From assembly GCA_903913865.1 (NCBI GenBank), contig CAIWMU010000203.1, positions 1-34,189 of the forward strand: DNA of 34,189 nucleotides. Direction: 5' to 3'. Below are positions 3,625 through 26,616 of this stretch, in pieces (within the stretch, counting starts at the first letter, position 1; each line of letters opens with the position of its first letter). The notes beneath the pieces are model-generated. The model had not been told where the DNA came from. It ran no database searches and saw only the letters and a list, made by a program, of their open reading frames with translations. The position numbers and the translations under genes were made by a program. Source of the stretch: an uncultured Verrucomicrobia subdivision 3 bacterium (GTDB taxonomy: Bacteria > Verrucomicrobiota > Verrucomicrobiia > Limisphaerales > UBA8199).

Positions 3625-6387
3625 TTATTCGATCACGAACCAGGTTACACCCCGGGCTGGCACTTCGACGGGGAGTTGGATGCGGTATTCCCGGTCCAGC
3701 TTCAGCTTTTGGCTCTTTCCATCCTGTTCGCGCAGCGTGGCGGTTGTGGTTTTGCCGGTGTAATAGAGGGGAATCTGGAGGGTCTTGCGGACCTTGTTCT
3801 CCAGGGGGTTGTAAACCATCAGCAGGCCCTTTTCCTTTCCACAGGGGTTGACGTGGAGGATGTAGTCCAGGTCCCGTCCATCGGCGCGGCGGAGGTGGAG
3901 GATGTCGGAATTGAGGACTTCGCGATGTTTCTTGTAGAAGTCCACCCAGTGTTTGACGACCGCCATTGTGGAGTCTGTGTCGTAGAGGCGCGGGCCGCGA
4001 TAACAGGCCATGACCCCGGCACCGAAGAGGTTGGCGAGGCGCTGCCCGTAATGATCCAGATGTTCGCTGAGCGGCTCGATCGTTGCAGCGGCGCCGCCCC
4101 CCTGATATTCCGTGAGCGGGACGAACATCCAGCCCATGGAAGGGGCCTTTTCCCAGGTACCGTCGAAGATGTTCTGGCGCTCGATGATTTCCTGGAATTC
4201 ACGGGGGAGGGACCAGTTCACCTCCCGGTAGCCCATGCCGGTTTTTGTGCTGCCCGAGAGGAAATACCAGTCGGGGATGTTGAGGTAAACCCCATTGGCG
4301 CGGCACCATTTGTAGAGATCGGTGATGGCCTTCCACTGGACCCACTGGGAATCCTCAAACCCCTTGTGAAACGGATGGTTCGTGGAGGCGCAGGTGTCGC
4401 CCGGGTAGGAGCCATCATGCTCCAGCACTGCGAGACCGGTATTGTCCATGAAGGTTTTCAGGTGCTGCAGGTAATCCTGCCCCCAGGTTGCGCCAAGGCA
4501 GGGGGCGACACCGAATGCCGTGGGGCCGACCGTGTTATCTGCGGGAGTTGCGGCGCCCCGGCTGGCGCAGAGGGAATAGCCGCCGAGGACGATGCCTTTG
4601 GATTTTGCGTAATCGGCCAGGGTTTTGAGCCCGGCCTGATAATCCTTGTCGCGGCTTTCGAAATTGAACCCGCTGCCGAAGGTGAGGATGACCATCTCGA
4701 ATCCGACAGCGGCGCACTGGTCGATCGCAAGTTTCACAGCCTCGGGCCGGGCGCTTCGCACATGCATGAGGATGGGGTTCTCGGTTGCCCACGGGGCGAT
4801 GGCGCGATACATGCGGCGCTGGGCGAGACCCTTGCGCTCGCGGTCGGTGCTGTCCTGGGCGAGTTCAAAGGCGCGGAAGCTTTCGAAGCTGCCACCGGGG
4901 GCGATTTCCTGATCGGGACCCTGCGGCGGTTTGCATTCCAGGAGGCAGGGGGTGTTGCGGTTGTAATTCACCTGCGAGAGGTATTCAGGGTCTGATCCCC
5001 AGCGCACGCCCCGGTTGCCCCCCTTGCTGCCCATCCCACCGAAGGCGTAATCCGTCTCCACGTAGAGATTCGGGAGTTCCCAGCGGGGGTTGTCATCCAC
5101 GTAGGATTCATATTCAACGGTGGCGAGGACCTCGCTGATGAAGGAGTTCAGCCGGACAGGGCGGGTGGTGCCATTGCGAATAACGATCCATTTGGAGATC
5201 AGCGGCAGCCCGTCAAACAGTTCATAGTGGACCTCCACGGTGACTTTCCCCTGACCGGACGGGGCGGATTTCACCAGTGGTTTCTCGCTCTGGCCGGGGC
5301 CGTAAATGCGGAAGGCCCGGACGAAGCATCTTTCAAGGTCACCATCGGGGGAGAAATCATCGGCGCGGCCATCGCGGGAAAGTTTTCCGATGCGCACGGC
5401 TGTGGGGTTGCCCGGGGCGGGGGTGTCGCCAATCCGCACCCATTTCCTGCCATTCAGGGAAGCATCGCACAGGATTTTGCCGCTGCGCAGGGTCATTCTG
5501 AGGGTGTAGGGTTTGCCGCCCTCCATTTTTCCAAGCTCCTTTTCCCCACCGCCCCCCAGCAGGCCGAAACAGCCGTGGCCGGGGCGGAGGTAAAACCGCA
5601 CAACCTTCTCCCCGAACACCAGGGCGATGCCCGGACCCCAGCTCGCGCTTTTGTCCGTGCCCGGATCCACCTGACACTCCACGGTGGTGGCCTCCTGTGG
5701 CCAACTGCGCTCTGCGAAGGCGTGGGTGTTCTCCCGGGCCATGATCTCGCCGGGCTTGCCCTCATTTTGAAAGGAGGTGCGGGCATCCTTTTTGCTCAGG
5801 AACAACTTCCACTCTTTGGAGAGTTCGGTGAAGTCGTCGGAGACCATGGCCTCCCGGGGCTGGTCCACTCCGCCGAAACCATCCGGGGATTGAAATTCGA
5901 GGGTGAGCGAGACACCGGGCGGGGGCCAGGGGGCGTCGGCAGGCATCCACTCCGTCCGCTTCTTCCACGCGAAGCGGGCAGTGGTCCGTCCTGTCTTGAA
6001 TCCGGTGAACTGGAAGGCATCCGGATTTGCCTCCAGCGAATTGATCCATCCGGGCTTGAGGAAGTTCTGGACCGGCTGGGTTCCAAGCCCCCCGACTTCG
6101 CAGGGGACCCCATCCAGCACGAGCCGCGCCTCGGGGCGGACGGCACGGATGATGGACTCCCCGGACATCAGGTTCTCGAAGGAAACCGTGGCAGCGTTCG
6201 GCTCCAGCCGGAACACGCGGCGGATCAGGCCGTTCTCGAGCGTGATCTCCCGGTTGGTCTGACCCGGGTGGATTTCCGCCTTGAAGGTGGATCCATCCAG
6301 CATCCAGTCGGCGGCATGGCCGGTCGTGAGGGTGGTGATGAGCCATCCCGTGGCGAGGATCAGTGATTTAACATGTCTCTGTGTCAT
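3625..6387 (-). CDS. Secreted clan GH-D-like (alpha-galactosidase-like) glycoside hydrolase
   Basis: Exported enzyme of 920 residues, probably a retaining alpha-glycosidase. Residues 1-25 are a Sec signal ending TTGHA. An N-terminal super-beta-sandwich (about 30-182 and 366-520) is interrupted by a second beta-sandwich at about 185-365 that resembles concanavalin-like modules (DDFTELSKEW at its start, FVRAFRIYGPG at its end). A TIM barrel follows (about 550-810), with VILTFGSGFNFES, VLEHDGSYPGD near residue 655 and NIPDWYFLSG near 704. The Asp of LEHDG is the best candidate nucleophile by analogy with the GH27/GH36 strand-4 Asp. A C-terminal beta domain ends in VPARGVTWFVIE. Exact family membership is uncertain; GH36 or an unclassified relative is possible. 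It is monocistronic as far as seen, and convergent with the pseudopilin gene. Confidence 0.75.
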   Translation of the reverse strand: MTQRHVKSLILATGWLITTLTTGHAADWMLDGSTFKAEIHPGQTNREITLENGLIRRVFRLEPNAATVSFENLMSGESIIRAVRPEARLVLDGVPCEVGGLGTQPVQNFLKPGWINSLEANPDAFQFTGFKTGRTTARFAWKKRTEWMPADAPWPPPGVSLTLEFQSPDGFGGVDQPREAMVSDDFTELSKEWKLFLSKKDARTSFQNEGKPGEIMARENTHAFAERSWPQEATTVECQVDPGTDKSASWGPGIALVFGEKVVRFYLRPGHGCFGLLGGGGEKELGKMEGGKPYTLRMTLRSGKILCDASLNGRKWVRIGDTPAPGNPTAVRIGKLSRDGRADDFSPDGDLERCFVRAFRIYGPGQSEKPLVKSAPSGQGKVTVEVHYELFDGLPLISKWIVIRNGTTRPVRLNSFISEVLATVEYESYVDDNPRWELPNLYVETDYAFGGMGSKGGNRGVRWGSDPEYLSQVNYNRNTPCLLECKPPQGPDQEIAPGGSFESFRAFELAQDSTDRERKGLAQRRMYRAIAPWATENPILMHVRSARPEAVKLAIDQCAAVGFEMVILTFGSGFNFESRDKDYQAGLKTLADYAKSKGIVLGGYSLCASRGAATPADNTVGPTAFGVAPCLGATWGQDYLQHLKTFMDNTGLAVLEHDGSYPGDTCASTNHPFHKGFEDSQWVQWKAITDLYKWCRANGVYLNIPDWYFLSGSTKTGMGYREVNWSLPREFQEIIERQNIFDGTWEKAPSMGWMFVPLTEYQGGGAAATIEPLSEHLDHYGQRLANLFGAGVMACYRGPRLYDTDSTMAVVKHWVDFYKKHREVLNSDILHLRRADGRDLDYILHVNPCGKEKGLLMVYNPLENKVRKTLQIPLYYTGKTTTATLREQDGKSQKLKLDREYRIQLPVEVPARGVTWFVIE

Positions 6388-11619: not shown

Positions 11620-13746
11620 ATGAAAACAAAACCCCTCTCGCTAGCCTTTACTGGCATTCTCACCCTCTTTGGCATCACGGCCGCGCCGGCACAAAATCTG
11701 ATTGTGAACGGTGATTTTACGGCGAACGCTGCGGCGTTCACGACGTTTCCCGGCTACGCAACGCCGAATAGTGCGGTGCCCATATCAGATTGGGCGAATG
11801 GTCTTGGAGGCGGCATGGGAGTGAATGGTGCGACGACCGGGGTTGGAGATGTTTTCGGGCCGGCCAATGCTTGCGGGCAGACCTATGCATTCATCCAGGG
11901 AGGGATCGGGGTGCTGATGCAGAATCTTCCGCCCACCTACCTGCCCAACAAGGCGTATCAGCTGAGCTTTGATGCCGCTGCCAGAGGCGGCAACACGGAT
12001 GTCGCATTCCGGGTCCAGATTGGCGATGCCACCCAGAACCATGTCACGACGCAGGTTGGCCCCGTTGAGTTGATCGGCAACCCGGACTCCTTCGTCCACT
12101 ACAGCTATACGTTCACATCACCGGCCGTTTTCGACGGGGCACCCTCGGTTCAGTTGTATGATCTCACGCCGGGGGATAAAACAATGAACTTTGCCAATGT
12201 CGCCCTCGTTCCATGGCCTGAGGTGCGCACGAACCTGTTGACCGACACCTTCACCACGCCTGACACCTTTGTTCTGGGCGACAATCTGGCAACGCGGGAG
12301 ACTGGCACATTGGCCCCGGTCCCGACGTTCGACAGCGTGCAAGGCAGTTTTAACGACACGATCGAAATCAGTGGCAATGCCCTGAAGTTGTCCCGGCTGG
12401 ACGGCAGCGGGGCATTCGTCATGAGCGCATCGCCCGATGTGAACATCCTTCCCTATGAAGTGAACAGCAGCTTCCGGGTGGCGTGCGATATCAAAGTGCA
12501 GTCCGCCGATCCGATCGCCGACAGCTGGGCCGGGCTTGCGGTGAGGGGTGTTTCGCGATTGATGGGGCCGGCACAGGGGAATTGTTTTTCCATGCTGGTG
12601 CGGCCCGGTGGCGGCTATCAGGTCTTTGACGGTGCGAATTCGATCGGTTTCGGCAGCCTCAACGGGAAAACCAATTATCATGTGGTGATTGATGTCCGGA
12701 ACAACGTCGCCCGCATCCTTGTGAATGATCTGCCGCTGCTTTTTGCGGGTGGCCAATACACCCATACGATCACCAACGCGACATCCGGCAACTACATCAG
12801 CTTCGCGAACCATGCCGGCGCTGCCGAAGCGGTTCCCGCGACTGCCACGTTCGACAATCTGTCTGTTTCCGTGGGTGTGGCGCCGCCGCAACCGTTCGTG
12901 CCCACCACTCCATTGCTGGCCGACAATTTCAACAGCGCTGACTCCGAAAGTCTGAACAACAACCTTCCGGCCCGTCAGAGCGGCATTATCGCGACGCGGG
13001 TCTGGGCCACCTCCCAGCTGAATGGTGCGGCGTTTGCCATCAACAACAACTCGCTTCTGATCACCAACACGGGTGACACCAGCACTACAAACAGTTACGG
13101 GGTGGTTTCGACCGTCAACCTGAGGCCCTACCAGAAGTCGGAAGACTTCCGCGTGCGCGTGAAGATTTCACCTGTGGTGGCGAGTGGGGATAGTTGGGGA
13201 GCGATCGTTGTGGGGCAGTCCGATCCCTCCAAATGGATTCTGGAGGGTGACGGGCTCGGTCTCTTCGTGCGCCCGGATGGGTCGTGGGGGGTGACTGCGG
13301 GTCCCAGCGTGGTGTTCACAGGCAACGTGACGCCTGCGGCGACTTATGATGTGGAGATCAACGTGTCCGGGAATATTGCCACGGCGAGGATCAATGGGCT
13401 GGTCATCGCCTCGGGACAGATTCCTCCATTCCCGAGCAACATCGTTTCGTTGACATCCAACGCAGGGCAATCCAACGGCGGGGCGACCGGGGTTGCGGCC
13501 AGATTCGATGATTTTGAGTTTTCGATTCCGGGGCTGACGCTGCTGAACATGCGGAACGTTGCAGGCACGGCGAGCTTCCAGTTCTATTCCGTGACCGGCC
13601 GCGTGTATGGGCTGGAATACAAGGAGAGCCTGACGGATCCGTGGATCTACGCTCTGGATGTCATCGGCACGGGCGGGTTGCAGACCGTCTCGGGGGCGTT
13701 GCCGTTTCCGAAGGCGTTCTTCCGCCTGAAGACGACCTCACCGTAG
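11620..13746 (+). CDS. Secreted multi-module protein with duplicated concanavalin-like domains
   Basis: Exported protein of 708 residues. Residues 1-24 are a Sec signal (GILTLFGITAAPAQ). Residues about 25-195 begin with NLIVNGDFT, the usual opening of CBM4/CBM9-type jelly-roll modules. Two roughly 210-residue modules follow at about 206-417 and 433-637. They align with each other: LTDTFTTPDTFVLGDNL against LADNFNSADSESLNNNL, SADPIADSWAGLAVRG against ASGDSWGAIVVGQ, and SMLVRPGGGYQVF against GLFVRPDGSWGV. The C-terminal 65 residues form a small domain ending KAFFRLKTTSP, like the end of the next gene product. No catalytic residues are evident, so glycan binding is the most likely role. The following gene starts about 140 bp downstream in the same direction and may be co-transcribed. 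Confidence 0.75.
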   Translation: MKTKPLSLAFTGILTLFGITAAPAQNLIVNGDFTANAAAFTTFPGYATPNSAVPISDWANGLGGGMGVNGATTGVGDVFGPANACGQTYAFIQGGIGVLMQNLPPTYLPNKAYQLSFDAAARGGNTDVAFRVQIGDATQNHVTTQVGPVELIGNPDSFVHYSYTFTSPAVFDGAPSVQLYDLTPGDKTMNFANVALVPWPEVRTNLLTDTFTTPDTFVLGDNLATRETGTLAPVPTFDSVQGSFNDTIEISGNALKLSRLDGSGAFVMSASPDVNILPYEVNSSFRVACDIKVQSADPIADSWAGLAVRGVSRLMGPAQGNCFSMLVRPGGGYQVFDGANSIGFGSLNGKTNYHVVIDVRNNVARILVNDLPLLFAGGQYTHTITNATSGNYISFANHAGAAEAVPATATFDNLSVSVGVAPPQPFVPTTPLLADNFNSADSESLNNNLPARQSGIIATRVWATSQLNGAAFAINNNSLLITNTGDTSTTNSYGVVSTVNLRPYQKSEDFRVRVKISPVVASGDSWGAIVVGQSDPSKWILEGDGLGLFVRPDGSWGVTAGPSVVFTGNVTPAATYDVEINVSGNIATARINGLVIASGQIPPFPSNIVSLTSNAGQSNGGATGVAARFDDFEFSIPGLTLLNMRNVAGTASFQFYSVTGRVYGLEYKESLTDPWIYALDVIGTGGLQTVSGALPFPKAFFRLKTTSP

Positions 13747-13805: not shown

Positions 13806-13885
13806 GATGCGCCAGAGGGACGTTTTGCGTGTGGTTTGCTTTACATGCGAATCGGGGTTGCCCCACAATGCGGGCACCATTTGTG

Positions 13886-16800
13886 ATGAATTGCTGCCGA
13901 AAGGTTTTTGATCGTCGTCTGGCTGGCCGGATTGTGTGTGTTTGGGTGGTGCTGGTGTTGATGGGCCGGGCTTTTGGCCAGACACTGCCATCCTTCGATT
14001 TCAGCAAACCCGCGGACACAGCCGGCTGGGGGGCGAGCCATGACATCAGTTCACTTTCCACCACCAGCACGGGGTTGCTGGCGCAGATCAGCGGAGCGGA
14101 TCCCTACACGGTGGGGCCCCGGCGGGATTTCCCAACCAACACCCCACTCTGGCTGAGGCTCAAATTGATCAGCGAGATGGGGGGTGGGGCTCAGGTGTTT
14201 TACTACAGCAACGCACCCGCCGAGGCCTCCTCGGTGAGGTTCGCGGTGCCAGCGGGCCAGTGGACCGAAGGACGGGTCCCGGTTCCGGCATTCGGGGGGG
14301 GCTACCGGATGCGGATCGATCCACCGGGAACCAGTGGGCGGGTCACCTTCGCCTCCCTGGGGTTTGAGGTCCGGACTGCCTTTCCCGACATGGATCTTGG
14401 CACGACGCCCGATTCTACAGAATGGACCGCGCAGCATGATATTGCCTCGCTCACGCCATCCACAAACGGATTGGTGATCTCCATCTCCGGCAGTGATCCC
14501 TACATGGCGGGTCCGGCGCGGGATTATCCTGATGGCAAGCTGCTCTGGCTGCACGTGCGCTTGAAGTCCGATCAGTCGGGAGTGGCCCAGGTGTTTTACT
14601 ACCAATCGGGTCCGACCGAGCAAAACGCGGTGCAATTTTATGTCCCCGCTGGCGGGTGGCATGAGGCCGTGGTGCCGATGCCCGCGCTGGGAGCCGGGTG
14701 GAAGTTGCGCGTGGATCCGCCCGGGACGAGCGGAACCTGCACTCTGGGCCGGATCTGGTTCGATGAGCGCGTGATCCACCCGCCGCCTGTATGGCCAACT
14801 CCGGCACTCCGGCCTATTGCCGGAAATGCGCTCCATCTCAAGAGTGGCGAGTTGGAACTATCCCACAATCCCGATGCCTTGGGCTCATTTCAAGTGAGCT
14901 TTGGAGGGAGGCAGGTTGGCGCGGGAAATCCGGAGGCTTTGCTGGGATATGTTTTCAGCAATCGGGCGAGGTGGCTGCCGTTCGGCACCTCTCCGACCCG
15001 GCCGGTAAGTTCCCAGATCTTCACCAATGGGTTCGGGCTGAGGAATGAATTCACGGACGCGGACGGGGCACGTTGGTTTATCGAACAACGTTTCGCCTCC
15101 AACTCCCCCAACGCCCTCGCGGTGGAAATCCGTGTCGGAACGGATCGTGACCGCTCATTGCTCTACCTGCCCGTATTCACCGTTCTGGCCGGGATGGGGA
15201 GCCATGGCACGAACAAAACCCAGGGGCTTCTCGCGGGCCTCGAGTATTTGGAGAACGAACCGAGCAGTTCTGAACTGGATGCCATCGGGGAGGCCGCCCG
15301 GAGGCTGGTTCCGGATGTGAAGAAGGTGACGGTGCCATTGATGGCCATTTCGGCTGAGAACCATTGCCTCGGGCTGTTCTGGGAGCCGCAACCGGACATC
15401 GCTCCCGTGTTTGATTCCCCGGACCGCCAGTTCAACTCCGGCGGGCACCTCATGGGGCTGCTCTGCCCGGGATCTGATGGCTACAACCGGGATCAGGGCA
15501 GTCTGCTGCCCTATTCACCCCGCGTGTTGCGCTCGAATGAAACCTTCGTTGCCCGCTGCACCATTGTGGGCGGTCAAGGGGCCACGATCATTCCGGCGGT
15601 GCAGCAGTATGTGGCATTGAAGGGGTTGCCGGCGTTGCCCCCGGGGGTGCCCGGTGCCTCCAATTACTTTCTGGCGGCCGCCCATGGGTGGCTGGATTCG
15701 GGGATCCGCTCCAACGGCCTGATCCGCCACGCGGTGTGGCCGGGGTTTGGTCCCCAGCCTGCGGCGGATGCGGCAGTGTGGATGCGGTGGCTGGCGGAAC
15801 ATGTGGGGGATGCGCAGCTGGCGGCCAGCCTGTCGAATGTGGCGGGAACTGTTCTGGCCCAGGTTCCGACGTCGTATTTGAACAGCTATGCGGTGGGCCA
15901 CATCCGGTATCCGCTGCCGGCGCTGGTGTTCGGCGGGGTGCTGCAGAATGCGGCGCAGGCGAGAACGGACGGGGCCGGCATGCTGGGGCAGTTCCAGCCG
16001 GACGGGAGTGTGCTCTACGTTGCTCCTGCCGGCGGGACCGATCTGGGCACCACGCATTATGCGCGGGATGCGAACGGGTTGACGGCGACCGTTTTGAAGG
16101 GGTTGTTTGACCAGGCCCTGTTTTCCGGGGACCGGTCCCTCATGGATGCCGCAGTGGGGCACCTGCGGGAGATGGCCAAATTCCGCCACACGGTGCCGCG
16201 CGGAGCGCAGACGTGGGAGGTGCCGCTGCACACGCCGGACATCATGGCCTCGGCATATCTTCTGCTGGTGAACCTGCGAGGGTATCAACTCACGGGGGAT
16301 CCGGACCTGCTGGAGCAGGCGCGTTATTGGGCGTGGACGGGGGTGCCGTTTGTGTACCTGACCCCGCCCGTGGCGGGTTCCACCGGGCTGTATGCGACGA
16401 TTCCTGTGTTTGGATCCACGGCGTGGGTGGGGCCATGGTTTGGCAGGCCTGTGCAATGGTGCGGGCTGGTTTATGGCGAGGCGTTGTATGAACTGGCGGC
16501 GTTGGATCCCACGGGACCGTGGAGGCAGATTGCCGATGGCATCGCGGCCTCTGGAACCCAGGAGATGTTCCCGCCGACTGACACCATCCGCCAGGGCTGC
16601 CTGCCGGATTTTTACCTGCTGCAGGAACAGGTGAGCGACGGGCCGGCCATCAACCCGGGAACGCTTCAATCGCAGGCCATCCAGTTCCACACCGGGGCGC
16701 GGGCCTACACCTTCCGCCCGGTTCGGGAGCACGGGCTGCTGATCCACGCGCCGGGCGCGCTTGGGGAGGTGGTTCAGGAGCAGGATTCCGTTGCGTTCAC

Positions 16801-17203
16801 GCTTACCAATTGGGCTTCGACGCAAACCCGGGTTTTGATGGGCGGTTTTACCAGCATGCCCGGGGTGGTGCTTGATGGAACCAACGTTCCGATCGTGTTC
16901 CCGCACCAGTTTGATGCGACACACGGACTGCTGGTGCTGGGAGTTCGCGGCACGAACCGGGTGCGGATTCTCCACTCCGCCCTGCCACGGCTGGAGATAA
17001 AGCCTTCCGCAACGAACAGCGCCCTGCAGATCTCCTGGCCTGTGGCGAACACAAATTTCGTGCTCCAGCAAACCACCACGCTGCGGGACACCAACAGCTG
17101 GTTGAACTCAACCACGCGGGTCGTTGTCACCGGTGACCTGCGGGTGGCCACGGAGCCTGGCGCGGCACCCCAGCGCTTCTTCCGCCTCAAGAGCACGCCG
17201 TGA
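13886..17203 (+). CDS. Large secreted protein, tandem beta-sandwiches plus toroid-like domain, unknown family
   Basis: Exported protein of 1,105 residues from ATG 13886, which gives a textbook signal peptide (basic KVFDRRLAGR, hydrophobic IVCVWVVLVLM, then GRAFGQ). The frame stays open up to a GTG at 13829 and an ATG at 13868. Residues about 33-167 and 168-300 are two copies of one beta-sandwich: FDFSKPADTAGW against MDLGTTPDSTEW, AQVFYYSN against AQVFYYQS, and RIDPPGTSG against RVDPPGTSG. The centre (about 310-1000) has a beta-rich opening and then helical segments like those of (alpha/alpha)6 enzymes (HYARDANGLTATVLKGLFDQ, WEVPLHTPDIMASAYLLL, YQLTGDPDLLEQARYWAW). The last 70 residues (LQISWP to RFFRLKSTP) match the end of the preceding gene product. 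I cannot assign a glycosidase or lyase family; carbohydrate action is inferred from architecture and context. Confidence 0.75.
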   Translation: MNCCRKVFDRRLAGRIVCVWVVLVLMGRAFGQTLPSFDFSKPADTAGWGASHDISSLSTTSTGLLAQISGADPYTVGPRRDFPTNTPLWLRLKLISEMGGGAQVFYYSNAPAEASSVRFAVPAGQWTEGRVPVPAFGGGYRMRIDPPGTSGRVTFASLGFEVRTAFPDMDLGTTPDSTEWTAQHDIASLTPSTNGLVISISGSDPYMAGPARDYPDGKLLWLHVRLKSDQSGVAQVFYYQSGPTEQNAVQFYVPAGGWHEAVVPMPALGAGWKLRVDPPGTSGTCTLGRIWFDERVIHPPPVWPTPALRPIAGNALHLKSGELELSHNPDALGSFQVSFGGRQVGAGNPEALLGYVFSNRARWLPFGTSPTRPVSSQIFTNGFGLRNEFTDADGARWFIEQRFASNSPNALAVEIRVGTDRDRSLLYLPVFTVLAGMGSHGTNKTQGLLAGLEYLENEPSSSELDAIGEAARRLVPDVKKVTVPLMAISAENHCLGLFWEPQPDIAPVFDSPDRQFNSGGHLMGLLCPGSDGYNRDQGSLLPYSPRVLRSNETFVARCTIVGGQGATIIPAVQQYVALKGLPALPPGVPGASNYFLAAAHGWLDSGIRSNGLIRHAVWPGFGPQPAADAAVWMRWLAEHVGDAQLAASLSNVAGTVLAQVPTSYLNSYAVGHIRYPLPALVFGGVLQNAAQARTDGAGMLGQFQPDGSVLYVAPAGGTDLGTTHYARDANGLTATVLKGLFDQALFSGDRSLMDAAVGHLREMAKFRHTVPRGAQTWEVPLHTPDIMASAYLLLVNLRGYQLTGDPDLLEQARYWAWTGVPFVYLTPPVAGSTGLYATIPVFGSTAWVGPWFGRPVQWCGLVYGEALYELAALDPTGPWRQIADGIAASGTQEMFPPTDTIRQGCLPDFYLLQEQVSDGPAINPGTLQSQAIQFHTGARAYTFRPVREHGLLIHAPGALGEVVQEQDSVAFTLTNWASTQTRVLMGGFTSMPGVVLDGTNVPIVFPHQFDATHGLLVLGVRGTNRVRILHSALPRLEIKPSATNSALQISWPVANTNFVLQQTTTLRDTNSWLNSTTRVVVTGDLRVATEPGAAPQRFFRLKSTP

Positions 17204-22377: not shown

Positions 22378-22659
22378 TGTTGTTGGTGCAGAACAGCCGC
22401 CAAGGTTTGCCCGCGCGTTACTCAAAGTTTGTGCCCGATCAGGACGGGGGCGACGGGACGATTATTCCCTGCCTCCTTGGTTTGTCGATGCAAAACCGAC
22501 AAGGGGTGTTTGCTCCGGTTGTTCGCGGCCTCCGGCATGCTGGATCATCGACTGCATTCAATTGTTCCGCGAAAGACAAAGTATTTACGCTTCCTCGTTT
22601 CCCCAGTTGACTTCGAACTCCCCAACAACTAAAGGCAGTTGGACACATTGAAGAATATC
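22378..22659. promoter_or_regulatory. Divergent promoter region, lyase-like and DUF4450 genes
   Basis: A 282-bp region between two divergent starts should contain both promoters. I see only weak candidates on the plus strand, such as TTGACT near 22608 and AT-richer sequence around 22585-22597, and no clear palindromic operator. Confidence 0.35.
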
Positions 22660-25600
22660 ATGAGAACGTTCGAAGGAAGCCTCGCGGTCCGTTGGGTGCT
22701 GGCAGTCGCGGTGCTTGTGGCCGGTGCCGGTGGCGCATCATCGAAAGATGTCCCTCCCCAAGCACTCCGCTACGAAGCTGATGGGGAGGCACTGGTTATC
22801 CATAACGGCCGGCATTTCAACAATCGGCCGTTGTATGGCAACCACATCGGCGGTTTTGTGCTGGCGGGCGATCGGCCGTTTTTGAGGATGGCGCAGAGTC
22901 CCTATGTGGATGGCTGTTTCATGGTGGCGGTGGTTCGGGAGGGTAAAGGCGGGTGGCTTGCCGATGCCGGGGATGTGACAACGCGGTATCGATCCGGATG
23001 TGCGGAGTGGACGGTGCGGGACAGCGCCTGGCCGGGGTTGACAGTTCATTGGGCCGGGGTTCCGCTGGCTGAAGGTCCCGGGATGGCGGTGCGGCTGAGA
23101 ATCGAGGGCGGCAAAGCGGGCGATCGGTTGGTGTGGTGTTTCGGTGGTGCGATGCGAAATCTGCCCGGCTTTGCGACAAGCATGAACTGGGGCTGGGATA
23201 TTCTGGGCCATCCGGAATTGCTGACCCGGGGATTCACACCGGAGGACTGCCGCGGAAATAGCATCCGGCTCGTTGGGGATCACTTCGTTCTCCAGCCTCC
23301 AGCCTACGATCCTCCGGGCAGCCAACCCCGCCATACAGTTGTCGGTAGAGGGCCATCCGCATCCCGTGCGGTAGTGGTTGATGCATCGGGATGGCAGGAT
23401 CCGGCGGGACTGGCAGGTGGCGCGGTGGGCGAGCTGCCGATTGTGTGTGGGGCTTTGGACGCGGGGGTGCCGCTCGAGGCATATTGGGCATTTGCGGCGG
23501 GTGAGGATTCGGAGGCGGGCCTGAACAGACGCACCGTGTCACCAGCCGATGCGTTCGCTGCCGGGGTCAAACGGTTGGAGAGTGTCTCGCGGCAAGTGAC
23601 AGTTGAGACGCCGGATGCTCTATTGAACGCCACGGTCGCGCAATCGTGCCTGGCGATGGACGGCATGTGGTATCCGCCGGTTTTCGCGCATGGTGCCATG
23701 CAGTGGAACCTGCAGCTGGTGGGGTGGCGGACTTTGTTCGGAGCCATCGCCTACGGCTGGCATGATCGCGTTCTGGCCCAAGCCCGGTTCTTCATCGACA
23801 AGCAGATCCGCGAGTCGGCCAACCTGCTGGCCAAAGCCGATCCCAAGCTCGGCTACGGGCAGCAGGCCCGGGACTCCCGTTTTTACGGCCGAGGATTCAT
23901 TCCTGACCAGGGCTTCTACGATATGCAGAGCCAGTTTTTTGACCAGGTGCTGCACGACTGGCGGTGGACTGCCGATCCTGTGCTGGAGAAGGTGCTGCGG
24001 CCGGCCCTGGAACTGCATCTTGAGTGGATGAGGGATTGCTTTGATCCGGATGGTGACGGTGTTTACGAAAGCTACATCAACACCTGGCCGACCGATTCAC
24101 AGTGGTATAATGGAGCTGGCACTGCCGAGGAGACCGCCTATGCCTACCGGGGGCACAAGGCGGCGCTGGATATGGCACGCCGTGCAGGTGATGAAAAGGC
24201 CGTGGCTGTGCATCGCGCACGACTGGAGAAGATCCGTAGAGGATTCATCGACAGCCTCTGGATTGGAAGCAAGGGTTACGTCGGTTCCTATCGGGAGCAA
24301 ATGGGCTACAAGCGGTGCAATGAGAATCCATGGCTCTACAGCATCTTTTTGCCCATTGATGCCGGATTGCTATCCCCCCTCCAGGCGGCGCAGGCGCTGC
24401 ACTACACGGAGTGGGGGTTGGAAAACGAGCGGATGCCATATGGCGGTCGCCGGGTGTGGACCTCCAACTGGGTGCCGAGCGTGTGGTCGGTTCGGGAGAT
24501 GTGGCCGGGCGATAACTATCATCTGGCCCTGGCCTATTTTCAGACGGGTCTGGCGGCGGATGGATGGGACATTTTGCGCGGAACGTTCCTGGAGAGTGCC
24601 TGCGCGGGTCCTTCGCCGGGCAACCTGGGTCACAAGATGGGAGGACTGGATTTCAACGACTGCGCCAGCATGTTCTGCCGAACGACGGTGGAGGGTTTGT
24701 TCGGCTACTCTCCGGATTATCCGAATGGCACGGTCTCGATCTCGCCGCAATTGCCGGATGAGTGGAACCATGCCGCCATCCACACGCCGGATGTTTCAAT
24801 CACCGTTGATCGTTCTGCTTCAAGTGTCACCTGCACTGTTGAACTGTCCAGATCGGCATCGCTGGACATCCGTCTGCCTGTTTGCGCCGGTCGTGTTCGG
24901 GAAGTGACTGTGGATGGCGTTCGGGCGCGATGGACGACGGAGCCGGGATTCGAGAGGAGTCTGGTTCGTGTGGTAGCGCCGAAAGCGAGGAAGGCGTGCG
25001 TCGTCGCGAAGTTGGAGCAGGTGCGCCCACCCCAGCCGCCTTCGGTTTTTGCAGTGAAGGCGGGGCGTATCGAATTGATGCCAGCACCCGCGAATCTGGT
25101 GCGGATCGAGGATCCCCAGTCCGTGCTCTCCAATCCAACCGTTCAAGGCGGACGCTTCCACTCCGCCGTGGGCACCAATGAGGGGCATCACATGGTTTTC
25201 GGCTTGGCGAAAACGGGGTCCCTGGAACAGTGGTTGCGCTTCACCGGTAGCGTCGTTGAAGAGGAGGCGGAAAAGGCAAAGGCCGCGAAACGGGTCCTGG
25301 AGATCCCCAAGGATGCGCGGTGGGGTTGTGTGGATGTCGCCAAGTCATTCAATGGCGATGTTCGCAAGATCTACAAGCAGCAATATCTCTCTCCCCGTCC
25401 TCAGACCTGTTCCGTTCGCATTGGATCCGACGGGTATTCACCCTGGACATTCTATTACTGGGGAGGCCATGCGCCGGAGATCGAGTTGGACCAGGTTCCC
25501 CTGCTGTTGAAGGACGACAGCGCCAACCGCACCCCTGCCTACGAAGCGGGTGCCGACCCTTCGCTGGATCTGACAAACGAGGTGACTCTTGAGGCCTGGG

Positions 25601-26616
25601 TGCAGGCCGATCCGATGCCGCAGGCAGGGGGGCGGATTTTGGACAAGAGCAGGCCCGGCACCTACGACGGTTACATGCTCGACACCTATCCCGGCAACTC
25701 GCTCCGGTTGCACACCCCACAGGGAGGTTGCTCGTTTGATGCAAAACTACCCGGAGACAGGTGGACGCATGTCGCGGCTGTTTACAGTTCATCGGGAAAA
25801 ATTGCAAAACTCTTCATGAACGGACAGGAGGTGGCGGGCAGGACCAGCGGGCAATTCCCCCCGCTGAGCACCACAAAACTTCCCTTGAGAATCGGAGTCG
25901 ATCCCGCAGGTGACAGTCGTTTTCTGGGGCGCATCCAAAGGGCCGCTGTATATCGCCGTGCGCTGACGAATGACGAAATCGCACGCCGCGCGGCCGACCC
26001 GGCGCCTCTGGATGGCGTGATCGCCGAGTGGAATCTGGAGGCGAATCCAAAGCCCAGAGTCGAACCGATTGCCGGTCAGCTTGTGCTCCACCGGGTGGGA
26101 ACCGCCTCGAGCCGGATTCAAACACCGCAGGGTGTGCCGTTCACCTGGATGAGCGATGATGTGAACATCGCGTTCACCTCGCAGTGGGACAACTGGCCCA
26201 ACCACATCACCGTCCCGGTAAACCGGAAAGGTGAGGCTGTCTGGTTGTTGGTGTGCGGATCCAGCAATCCGATGCAGTGTGGGATCGCCAACGCGGAATT
26301 GCGGATGCGCTATGTGGATGGAGTGGTGGAGAAGCTGGAGTTGGTGCATCCCCAAAATTACTGGACGCTTTGTCAGCTGGCCACGACGCCCTCCGGGCCC
26401 GGGCAGGACACCCGGAACTATTACAACTATGAGCGGGACGGATTCTGCCTGCCCAAAAATCCTCCGGCCATGGTGGCGCTCGGCCGGAACTGCAACGCCA
26501 ACCTTCTCAACTGGCGATTGCGTCCCGGTGTCGCTTTGGAAAGTGTCACTCTGGAAACTCTTTCGATGGAAGTGGTTGTCGGTCTGATGGGCGTGACCGT
26601 CATGAATCCGGAATGA
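22660..26616 (+). CDS. DUF4450 family secreted protein with nested LamG domain
   Basis: Exported protein of 1,318 residues from ATG 22660 (MRTFEGSLAVRWV, hydrophobic to GAGGASS); the frame also allows a TTG at 22639. The N-terminus YEADGEALVIHNGRHFNNRPLYG is the hallmark of DUF4450. The centre is an (alpha/alpha)6-like region (MWYPPVFAHGAMQWNLQLVGWR, FDPDGDGVYESYINTWPTDS, NWVPSVWSVREMWPGDNYH, SPGNLGHKMGGLDFND). The C-terminal part resumes family features (NWPNHITVPVN, LLVCGSSNPMQ, LELVHPQNYW). A LamG-type jelly roll is inserted at about 963-1108 (SLDLTNEVTLEAWVQ, RWTHVAAVYSSSGK, KLFMNGQEVAG, IQRAAVYRRALTNDEI). Related proteins occur in Bacteroidota glycan loci and are thought to be glycosidases; activity here is unknown. 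The stop is just before the next gene's region, about 200 bp from its best start. Confidence 0.85.
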   Translation: MRTFEGSLAVRWVLAVAVLVAGAGGASSKDVPPQALRYEADGEALVIHNGRHFNNRPLYGNHIGGFVLAGDRPFLRMAQSPYVDGCFMVAVVREGKGGWLADAGDVTTRYRSGCAEWTVRDSAWPGLTVHWAGVPLAEGPGMAVRLRIEGGKAGDRLVWCFGGAMRNLPGFATSMNWGWDILGHPELLTRGFTPEDCRGNSIRLVGDHFVLQPPAYDPPGSQPRHTVVGRGPSASRAVVVDASGWQDPAGLAGGAVGELPIVCGALDAGVPLEAYWAFAAGEDSEAGLNRRTVSPADAFAAGVKRLESVSRQVTVETPDALLNATVAQSCLAMDGMWYPPVFAHGAMQWNLQLVGWRTLFGAIAYGWHDRVLAQARFFIDKQIRESANLLAKADPKLGYGQQARDSRFYGRGFIPDQGFYDMQSQFFDQVLHDWRWTADPVLEKVLRPALELHLEWMRDCFDPDGDGVYESYINTWPTDSQWYNGAGTAEETAYAYRGHKAALDMARRAGDEKAVAVHRARLEKIRRGFIDSLWIGSKGYVGSYREQMGYKRCNENPWLYSIFLPIDAGLLSPLQAAQALHYTEWGLENERMPYGGRRVWTSNWVPSVWSVREMWPGDNYHLALAYFQTGLAADGWDILRGTFLESACAGPSPGNLGHKMGGLDFNDCASMFCRTTVEGLFGYSPDYPNGTVSISPQLPDEWNHAAIHTPDVSITVDRSASSVTCTVELSRSASLDIRLPVCAGRVREVTVDGVRARWTTEPGFERSLVRVVAPKARKACVVAKLEQVRPPQPPSVFAVKAGRIELMPAPANLVRIEDPQSVLSNPTVQGGRFHSAVGTNEGHHMVFGLAKTGSLEQWLRFTGSVVEEEAEKAKAAKRVLEIPKDARWGCVDVAKSFNGDVRKIYKQQYLSPRPQTCSVRIGSDGYSPWTFYYWGGHAPEIELDQVPLLLKDDSANRTPAYEAGADPSLDLTNEVTLEAWVQADPMPQAGGRILDKSRPGTYDGYMLDTYPGNSLRLHTPQGGCSFDAKLPGDRWTHVAAVYSSSGKIAKLFMNGQEVAGRTSGQFPPLSTTKLPLRIGVDPAGDSRFLGRIQRAAVYRRALTNDEIARRAADPAPLDGVIAEWNLEANPKPRVEPIAGQLVLHRVGTASSRIQTPQGVPFTWMSDDVNIAFTSQWDNWPNHITVPVNRKGEAVWLLVCGSSNPMQCGIANAELRMRYVDGVVEKLELVHPQNYWTLCQLATTPSGPGQDTRNYYNYERDGFCLPKNPPAMVALGRNCNANLLNWRLRPGVALESVTLETLSMEVVVGLMGVTVMNPE

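Follow-up and report, generated by a model that had tools for sequence, protein, structure and literature searches.

We analysed one gene in a 34,189-nucleotide stretch of DNA (the window) from an uncultured Verrucomicrobia subdivision 3 bacterium, contig CAIWMU010000203.1 of assembly GCA_903913865.1. Positions 13886–17203 of the forward strand hold an intact open reading frame (ORF) for a protein of 1,105 amino acids, with an ATG at 13886 and a stop codon ending at 17203. An in-frame GTG upstream, at 13829, is also open, but the relative at locus L001 (73% identity), which has a similar signal peptide, starts at the place matching the ATG. The protein belongs to a real conserved family with a core of ∼700 residues. 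The fold is a known one but the family is new, being unclassified in Pfam, NCBIfam and the PDB sequences, and we consider it probable that its members are secreted carbohydrate-active enzymes (CAZymes) using an active site in the toroid. The features of the gene are as follows.

13886..17203 (+): whole gene, 1,105 amino acids, predicted to be secreted, unclassified; conserved in 75 loci
13886..13978 (+): residues 1–31, signal-peptide-like N-terminus; hydrophobic stretch ending ...GRAFGQ
13985..14380 (+): residues 34–165, beta-sandwich 1; match to the sandwich hidden Markov model (HMM) at 35–165, E 2.4e-38, and model strands
14381..14785 (+): residues 166–300, beta-sandwich 2; sandwich HMM match at 168–296, E 6.2e-44
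14816..15580 (+): residues 311–565, predicted galactose-mutarotase-like supersandwich; model strands and VIA-align match to 8x1b (Z 19.1, 223 residues)
15221..15424 (+): residues 446–513, conserved supersandwich stretch (GLEYL..E.SS; R473; W499; P512), candidate substrate-binding wall; conservation in 14/14
15653..16693 (+): residues 590–936, predicted (alpha/alpha)6 toroid, putative catalytic domain; helices and VIA-align Z 18.4 to 2fv0
16196..16240 (+): residues 771–785, PRGAQTWEVPLHTPD, the most conserved motif (R772, W777, E778, D785); conservation and models
16595..16609 (+): residues 904–908, G-x-x-P-D, the last front loop, with D908 a candidate general base; conservation
16706..16975 (+): residues 941–1030, predicted beta domain after the toroid; AlphaFold2 model
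16991..17200 (+): residues 1036–1105, C-terminal accessory domain; found at four further places in the same genome

Residues 1–31 would form a signal peptide, so that the protein is probably secreted, and a signal-peptide-like N-terminus is present in most of the relatives printed.

The window protein matched no family in Pfam or NCBIfam at E values up to 10, and this holds for DUF5695, the GH78 Bac_rhamnosid models, GH127 (PF07944) and GH88 (PF07470) in Pfam. It had no match among the PDB sequences, and profiles of 53 family members (full length and core) had no meaningful match there; the best E values obtained with the protein and the two profiles (0.93–0.98, a short beta-glucosidase stretch) were rejected. 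When the 53 members were scanned singly, 11 Pfam families appeared as weak and scattered matches, each in three members or fewer and GH88 not among them, and NCBIfam gave single chance-level matches. Comparison with hhalign gave a probability below 5% for GH88 (four sequences, a weak test) and 0.3–0.4% for the window's own GH78 (a single sequence). The literature searches made listed no paper on the family. An earlier note on this DNA, which had described the 1,105-residue ORF correctly, had also been unable to place the protein in any GH or PL family; in Pfam, NCBIfam and the PDB sequences this is borne out, with no confident match to a characterised family.

A pattern scan identified 75 loci with the core: by title, 36 from Planctomycetota, 26 from Verrucomicrobiota broadly defined (five Kiritimatiellae, five Lentisphaerae/Victivallales and 16 others), four from Hydrogenedentota, two from Armatimonadota and seven without a phylum name. 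The core occurs once in the window's own genome. Fifty of 286 genomes of the class match the protein somewhere, ∼25 of them in the core and the others in the sandwich or C-terminal domain only, and the core profile matches 18 of 288 genomes in a sample of the phylum at E up to 1e-5. The alignment of 53 members was drawn from 73 loci (L074 and L075 lie outside these) after 17 short or cut ORFs and four near-duplicates (≥85% identity) had been dropped. A set of 14 divergent relatives was picked from 17, leaving out L075, L127 and L133, which are broken or partial; the ten divergent relatives among the matches listed have 28–42% identity over the best stretch.

The structure was predicted with one method, AlphaFold2, for the full length (mean confidence, pLDDT, 90.8; predicted template modelling score, pTM, 0.86) and for the core, residues 301–1034 (pLDDT 93.2; pTM 0.94). 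Residues ∼310–940 are predicted to form a beta supersandwich followed by an (alpha/alpha)6 toroid, mostly with pLDDT >90. The earlier note's reading of ∼690 residues as a beta-domain/(alpha/alpha)6 enzyme thus agrees with the model, and the predicted fold is enzyme-like, the nearest folds being PL27, GH88, GH36-like and GH94-like enzymes. The long loops of the toroid comprise residues 605–626, 659–676, 703–729, 767–783, 823–856 and 894–924; as judged from secondary structure, all six would share one face, provided that the helices follow the alternating pattern of known toroids.

The 14 divergent relatives were aligned with the core family. Residues E453, E458, S460, S461, R473, W499 and P512 of the supersandwich are kept in 14/14, as are the toroid residues R772, W777, E778, D785, Y824, W851, W858, D874 and D908, among others; D908 is also invariant in the 53-member alignment. 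The most conserved motif of the core is PRGAQTWExPLHTPD. Counting three flanking residues on the six front loops, 41 of the 62 conserved toroid residues lie in them, a modest enrichment (Fisher p 0.019). The pLDDT is below 50 at residues 778–782 in the full-length model and 779–781 in the core model, the sole such stretch in the core. The loop carrying E778 is possibly mobile; alternatively, its low score is a modelling failure.

The core was compared with known enzymes using Foldseek and VIA-align, with VIA-align Z values within 1 of each other treated as tied. The top Foldseek matches were structures 5nok and 5no8 of the PL27 L-rhamnose-alpha-1,4-D-glucuronate lyase BACCELL_00875 (E 1.6e-10 and 2.9e-10; TM 0.32–0.35), followed by a galactosaminidase (E 4.8e-10) and a cellodextrin phosphorylase (E 3.2e-9). 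An excerpt of PMC8377490 describes the PL27 architecture as an N-terminal beta-sandwich followed by an (alpha/alpha)6 barrel, the domain order predicted here, and VIA-align superposes both domains of 5no8 on residues 20–640 of the core model (Z 17.0, 471 aligned residues, root-mean-square deviation (rmsd) 7.3). The likeness is at the level of the fold, however: identity is 11% at TM 0.35, the target has extra N-terminal jelly rolls and there is no sequence-profile match, 5no8 not being recovered by the family profile from all PDB chain sequences at E up to 10. PL27 is the closest enzyme over both core domains, but the target is not a member of it by sequence.

Other structures match one of the two domains. 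The unsaturated glucuronyl hydrolases 2fv0 and 3wiw, which we take to belong to GH88, align with the toroid (Z 18.4, 296 residues, rmsd 4.1) but without the supersandwich and at 11–13% identity; of the GH88 comparison proposed earlier, the toroid fold thus stands and a PF07470 match does not. For FpGalactosaminidase (8x1b, 9ayu; presumably GH36-type) the good match, with an rmsd of 2.7, is limited to the supersandwich; the catalytic domain of that enzyme is a TIM barrel. The supersandwich also resembles that of the PL26 exo-rhamnogalacturonan lyase 5xq3 (Z ∼17 over 235 residues), whose toroid does not co-superpose (rmsd 25 across both domains). PL8, PL21 and GH105 were not among the matches listed (50 VIA-align rows), which excludes none of them.

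The earlier note had described two tandem beta-sandwiches with AQVFYY and DPPGTSG, and both motifs are indeed found once in each copy, at residues 102 and 234 and at residues 145 and 277. Between the two sandwiches, 62 of 133 aligned residues are identical, with an alignment score of 348 compared to a maximum of 33 among 300 shuffles. All 53 members carry at least one sandwich, 45 of them as a single copy. Because only 8/53 carry two, the pair is a trait of the lineage and the family is defined by the core; the earlier label of double sandwich plus toroid therefore describes this protein and not the family. The tandem CBM22 jelly rolls of Xyn10C (4xup) are similar by fold (Foldseek E 4.1e-7), but the target-normalised TM is ∼0.28–0.30 and the CBM22 and CBM4_9 Pfam models match neither these sandwiches nor any of the 53 members. 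N-terminal sandwiches were also found fused to DUF5722 domains in two further loci (L105:1–2313, − strand, and L106:1390–3354, + strand), and the sandwich is therefore a shuffled, unnamed module resembling a carbohydrate-binding module (CBM). At the other end, the domain of ∼70 residues at 1036–1105 has no Pfam name and is present on other proteins in many genomes of the class; it may be a sorting or attachment domain common to these proteins.

The genes beside the planctomycete relatives are better evidence on function than those in the window. Among the 29 planctomycete loci that have 1.5 kb or more of upstream sequence, nine carry a sodium:solute symporter (SSF) directly upstream; a tenth case (L017) is cut by the contig end and lies outside this count. 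In six of the 26 planctomycete loci that have 2.8 kb or more, a DHDPS/NAL-superfamily aldolase comes ahead of the gene. In a tally of neighbours (84 of 91 used), SSF was found in 7/84, Carboxyl_trans in 6/84 and DHDPS in 5/84; in a second set of 82, from a random 88 of 236 flanking ORFs, sulfatases were found in 3/82, and the remainder were scattered families. The best solved relative of the symporter is 5nv9 (222 bits, the next having 132), SiaT from Proteus mirabilis, which is a sialic acid symporter (PMC5931594). According to the same paper, the carboxylate of the sialic acid N-acetylneuraminic acid (Neu5Ac) is bound by Ser60, Thr63 and Arg135; Gln82 and Thr58 are attributed to the glycerol tail, and Phe78, Gly81 and Phe243 to the acetyl region (PMC5931594). 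In the planctomycete symporters Ser60 and Arg135 are kept in 9/9 and Thr63 is replaced by Ser in 9/9, whereas Phe78, Gly81 and Gln82 are changed in 9/9 and Thr58 is replaced by Tyr in 9/9. Non-SiaT chains among the matches listed (SMCT1, SMVT and NIS twice, read by eye) have Tyr at column 135. With the carboxylate residues kept and the Neu5Ac pocket residues changed, we infer that the cargo is a sugar that is carboxylated but is not Neu5Ac. A sialic acid product, hinted at by the SiaT-like symporter and a sialidase-like BNR_2 neighbour in L023, was rejected in favour of another acidic sugar, the Neu5Ac pocket residues being changed in 9/9.

The aldolase matches 4xky, which we take to be a Bacteroides thetaiotaomicron protein, and YagE, a probable 2-keto-3-deoxy-galactonate aldolase. 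In the one sequence aligned, from L023, it has Leu at the position of the substrate Arg of DHDPS (presumably Arg138). Three planctomycete loci have a URO-D-family gene upstream of the symporter (L024:5065–6168, L052:4313–5395 and L071:4183–5313). In 10 loci a PNP-family gene recurs within ∼8 kb of the target, probably through chromosomal synteny.

The window itself contains GH78, MGH1-like, DUF4450/DUF608 and BNR_4 genes, with weak GH42 and GH43 matches. One direct neighbour of the gene (11620–13746, + strand) encodes a secreted-looking protein of 708 amino acids without a Pfam match above the cut-off; the other has sub-threshold matches only (Yae1_N and DUF4351). Further away are a large secreted-looking protein of 920 amino acids, also without a Pfam match above the cut-off (3625–6387, − strand), and a 1,325-residue protein (22639–26616) in which DUF4450 and laminin-G domains are combined with a GH116-like DUF608 stretch that is sub-threshold. 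The GH127 model has seven matches in the window's own genome at E ≤1e-10, and at least as many in several relatives. Near the relatives, the neighbours in the window do not recur, except for generic histidine kinase/response regulator genes and one GH78 match at 21% identity. The earlier note was thus right about the many glycan genes, but the argument it drew from them for an enzyme is weak because no window gene recurs tellingly beside relatives.

Several observations weigh against an enzyme of the kind we favour. The whole-core match to any single enzyme is loose (best TM ∼0.35, 11–12% identity), pLDDT falls precisely at the most conserved loop, and the loop enrichment is weak at a stricter threshold (26/39, p 0.056). 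The catalytic candidates E778, D785 and D908 were named from conservation. The symporter is absent in 20 of the 29 testable planctomycete loci and in every one of the 34 testable loci elsewhere, including those of Verrucomicrobiota; the argument built on it draws on a minority of the relatives, from a phylum other than that of the target. GH and PL matches are also intermixed in the fold searches; the predicted fold therefore indicates the kind of enzyme and does not choose between hydrolase and lyase.

The main rival to our own reading, which we consider somewhat unlikely, is a polysaccharide lyase, either PL27-like or a PL15/PL17-like exo-lyase, from which an unsaturated uronate would leave by beta-elimination. 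The invariant Y824 would act as the base, with R772, H672 and H782 neutralising the uronate carboxylate. This would fit the PL27 match across both core domains in the same domain order, the GH88 unsaturated-glucuronyl hydrolases at the head of the toroid-only VIA-align rows, and the acid-sugar transporter and aldolase adjoining the planctomycete relatives. Excerpts of PMC12336832 and PMC8778563 provide a precedent in exo-lyases with a toroid and beta-sheet domain that feed a symporter-based alginate pathway. However, the galactosaminidase and the cellodextrin phosphorylase score nearly equal to PL27 in Foldseek, there is no invariant Asn-His pair as in PL17, and the three invariant front-face carboxylates (E778, D785 and D908) would be superfluous for a lyase.

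Three further explanations are far less probable. The toroid matches include cellobiose 2-epimerases and AGE-family enzymes (Z 16–17.5), which could suggest an isomerase, epimerase or other non-hydrolytic toroid enzyme, but the signal-peptide-like N-termini, the obligatory CBM-like module and the supersandwich fit cleavage of an extracellular polymer, making this very improbable. We give equally little credence to a non-catalytic glycan-binding or surface protein: the resemblance of the sandwiches to CBM22 tandems and the presence of the module on other proteins would suit it, but conservation peaks in the toroid loops and not in the sandwiches. Least probable is an arabinofuranosidase-like enzyme related to GH127 in which the usual motif has been lost. 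The beta-L-arabinofuranosidase HypBA1 shares a six-hairpin toroid with the target, the divergent member L097 matches PF07944 at E 2.3e-4 (below the cut-off), and hhalign gives a probability of 79% (E 1.5e-5) for the toroid against GH127. This weak profile similarity is, however, confined to one stretch, a generic helical-hairpin repeat ahead of the catalytic part of GH127. The Cys-Cys pair of GH127 (C425–C426, in 20/20 GH127 relatives), presumably its catalytic/zinc site, is absent from the core, and the sole adjacent cysteines of the target are residues 3–4 in the signal region. Membership of GH127 was rejected on these grounds.

In the CAZyme that we favour, the active site would be the pocket between supersandwich residues 446–513 and the six long loops of the toroid face. 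Less certainly, the secreted enzyme may be exo-acting and free an acidic monosaccharide such as a uronate, an unsaturated uronate or another carboxylated sugar; in the planctomycete relatives, the SiaT-like symporter would import this sugar and a 2-keto-3-deoxy-acid aldolase would cleave it. We put an acidic substrate at slightly short of an even chance. In GH15-like inverting toroid hydrolases the general base is in the last such loop, and we lean towards hydrolysis since D908 would occupy the same place. E778 would then be the general acid and D908 (or D785) the general base. Hydrolysis nevertheless has no better than an even chance, beta-elimination perhaps one in three, and some other chemistry a small one. 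The fullest version of the proposal, which we regard as doubtful, is that a cross-phylum family frees a carboxylated sugar outside any described pathway of this kind, with a SiaT-like symporter of remodelled pocket to import it, a dedicated aldolase to split it and a mobile E778 loop that closes over the substrate.

Bacteria of the Planctomycetes–Verrucomicrobia–Chlamydiae group carry glycan genes in large numbers, many with an unknown target. A well-conserved secreted family with a confident model and no Pfam or NCBIfam name makes a good candidate to become a new GH or PL family. With a symporter and an aldolase beside some planctomycete members, the range of likely substrates shrinks to carboxylated sugars, and the activity is therefore directly testable. 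If the fullest version is true, Planctomycetota would have a complete new route for scavenging acidic sugars, of which Verrucomicrobiota would use the enzyme alone.

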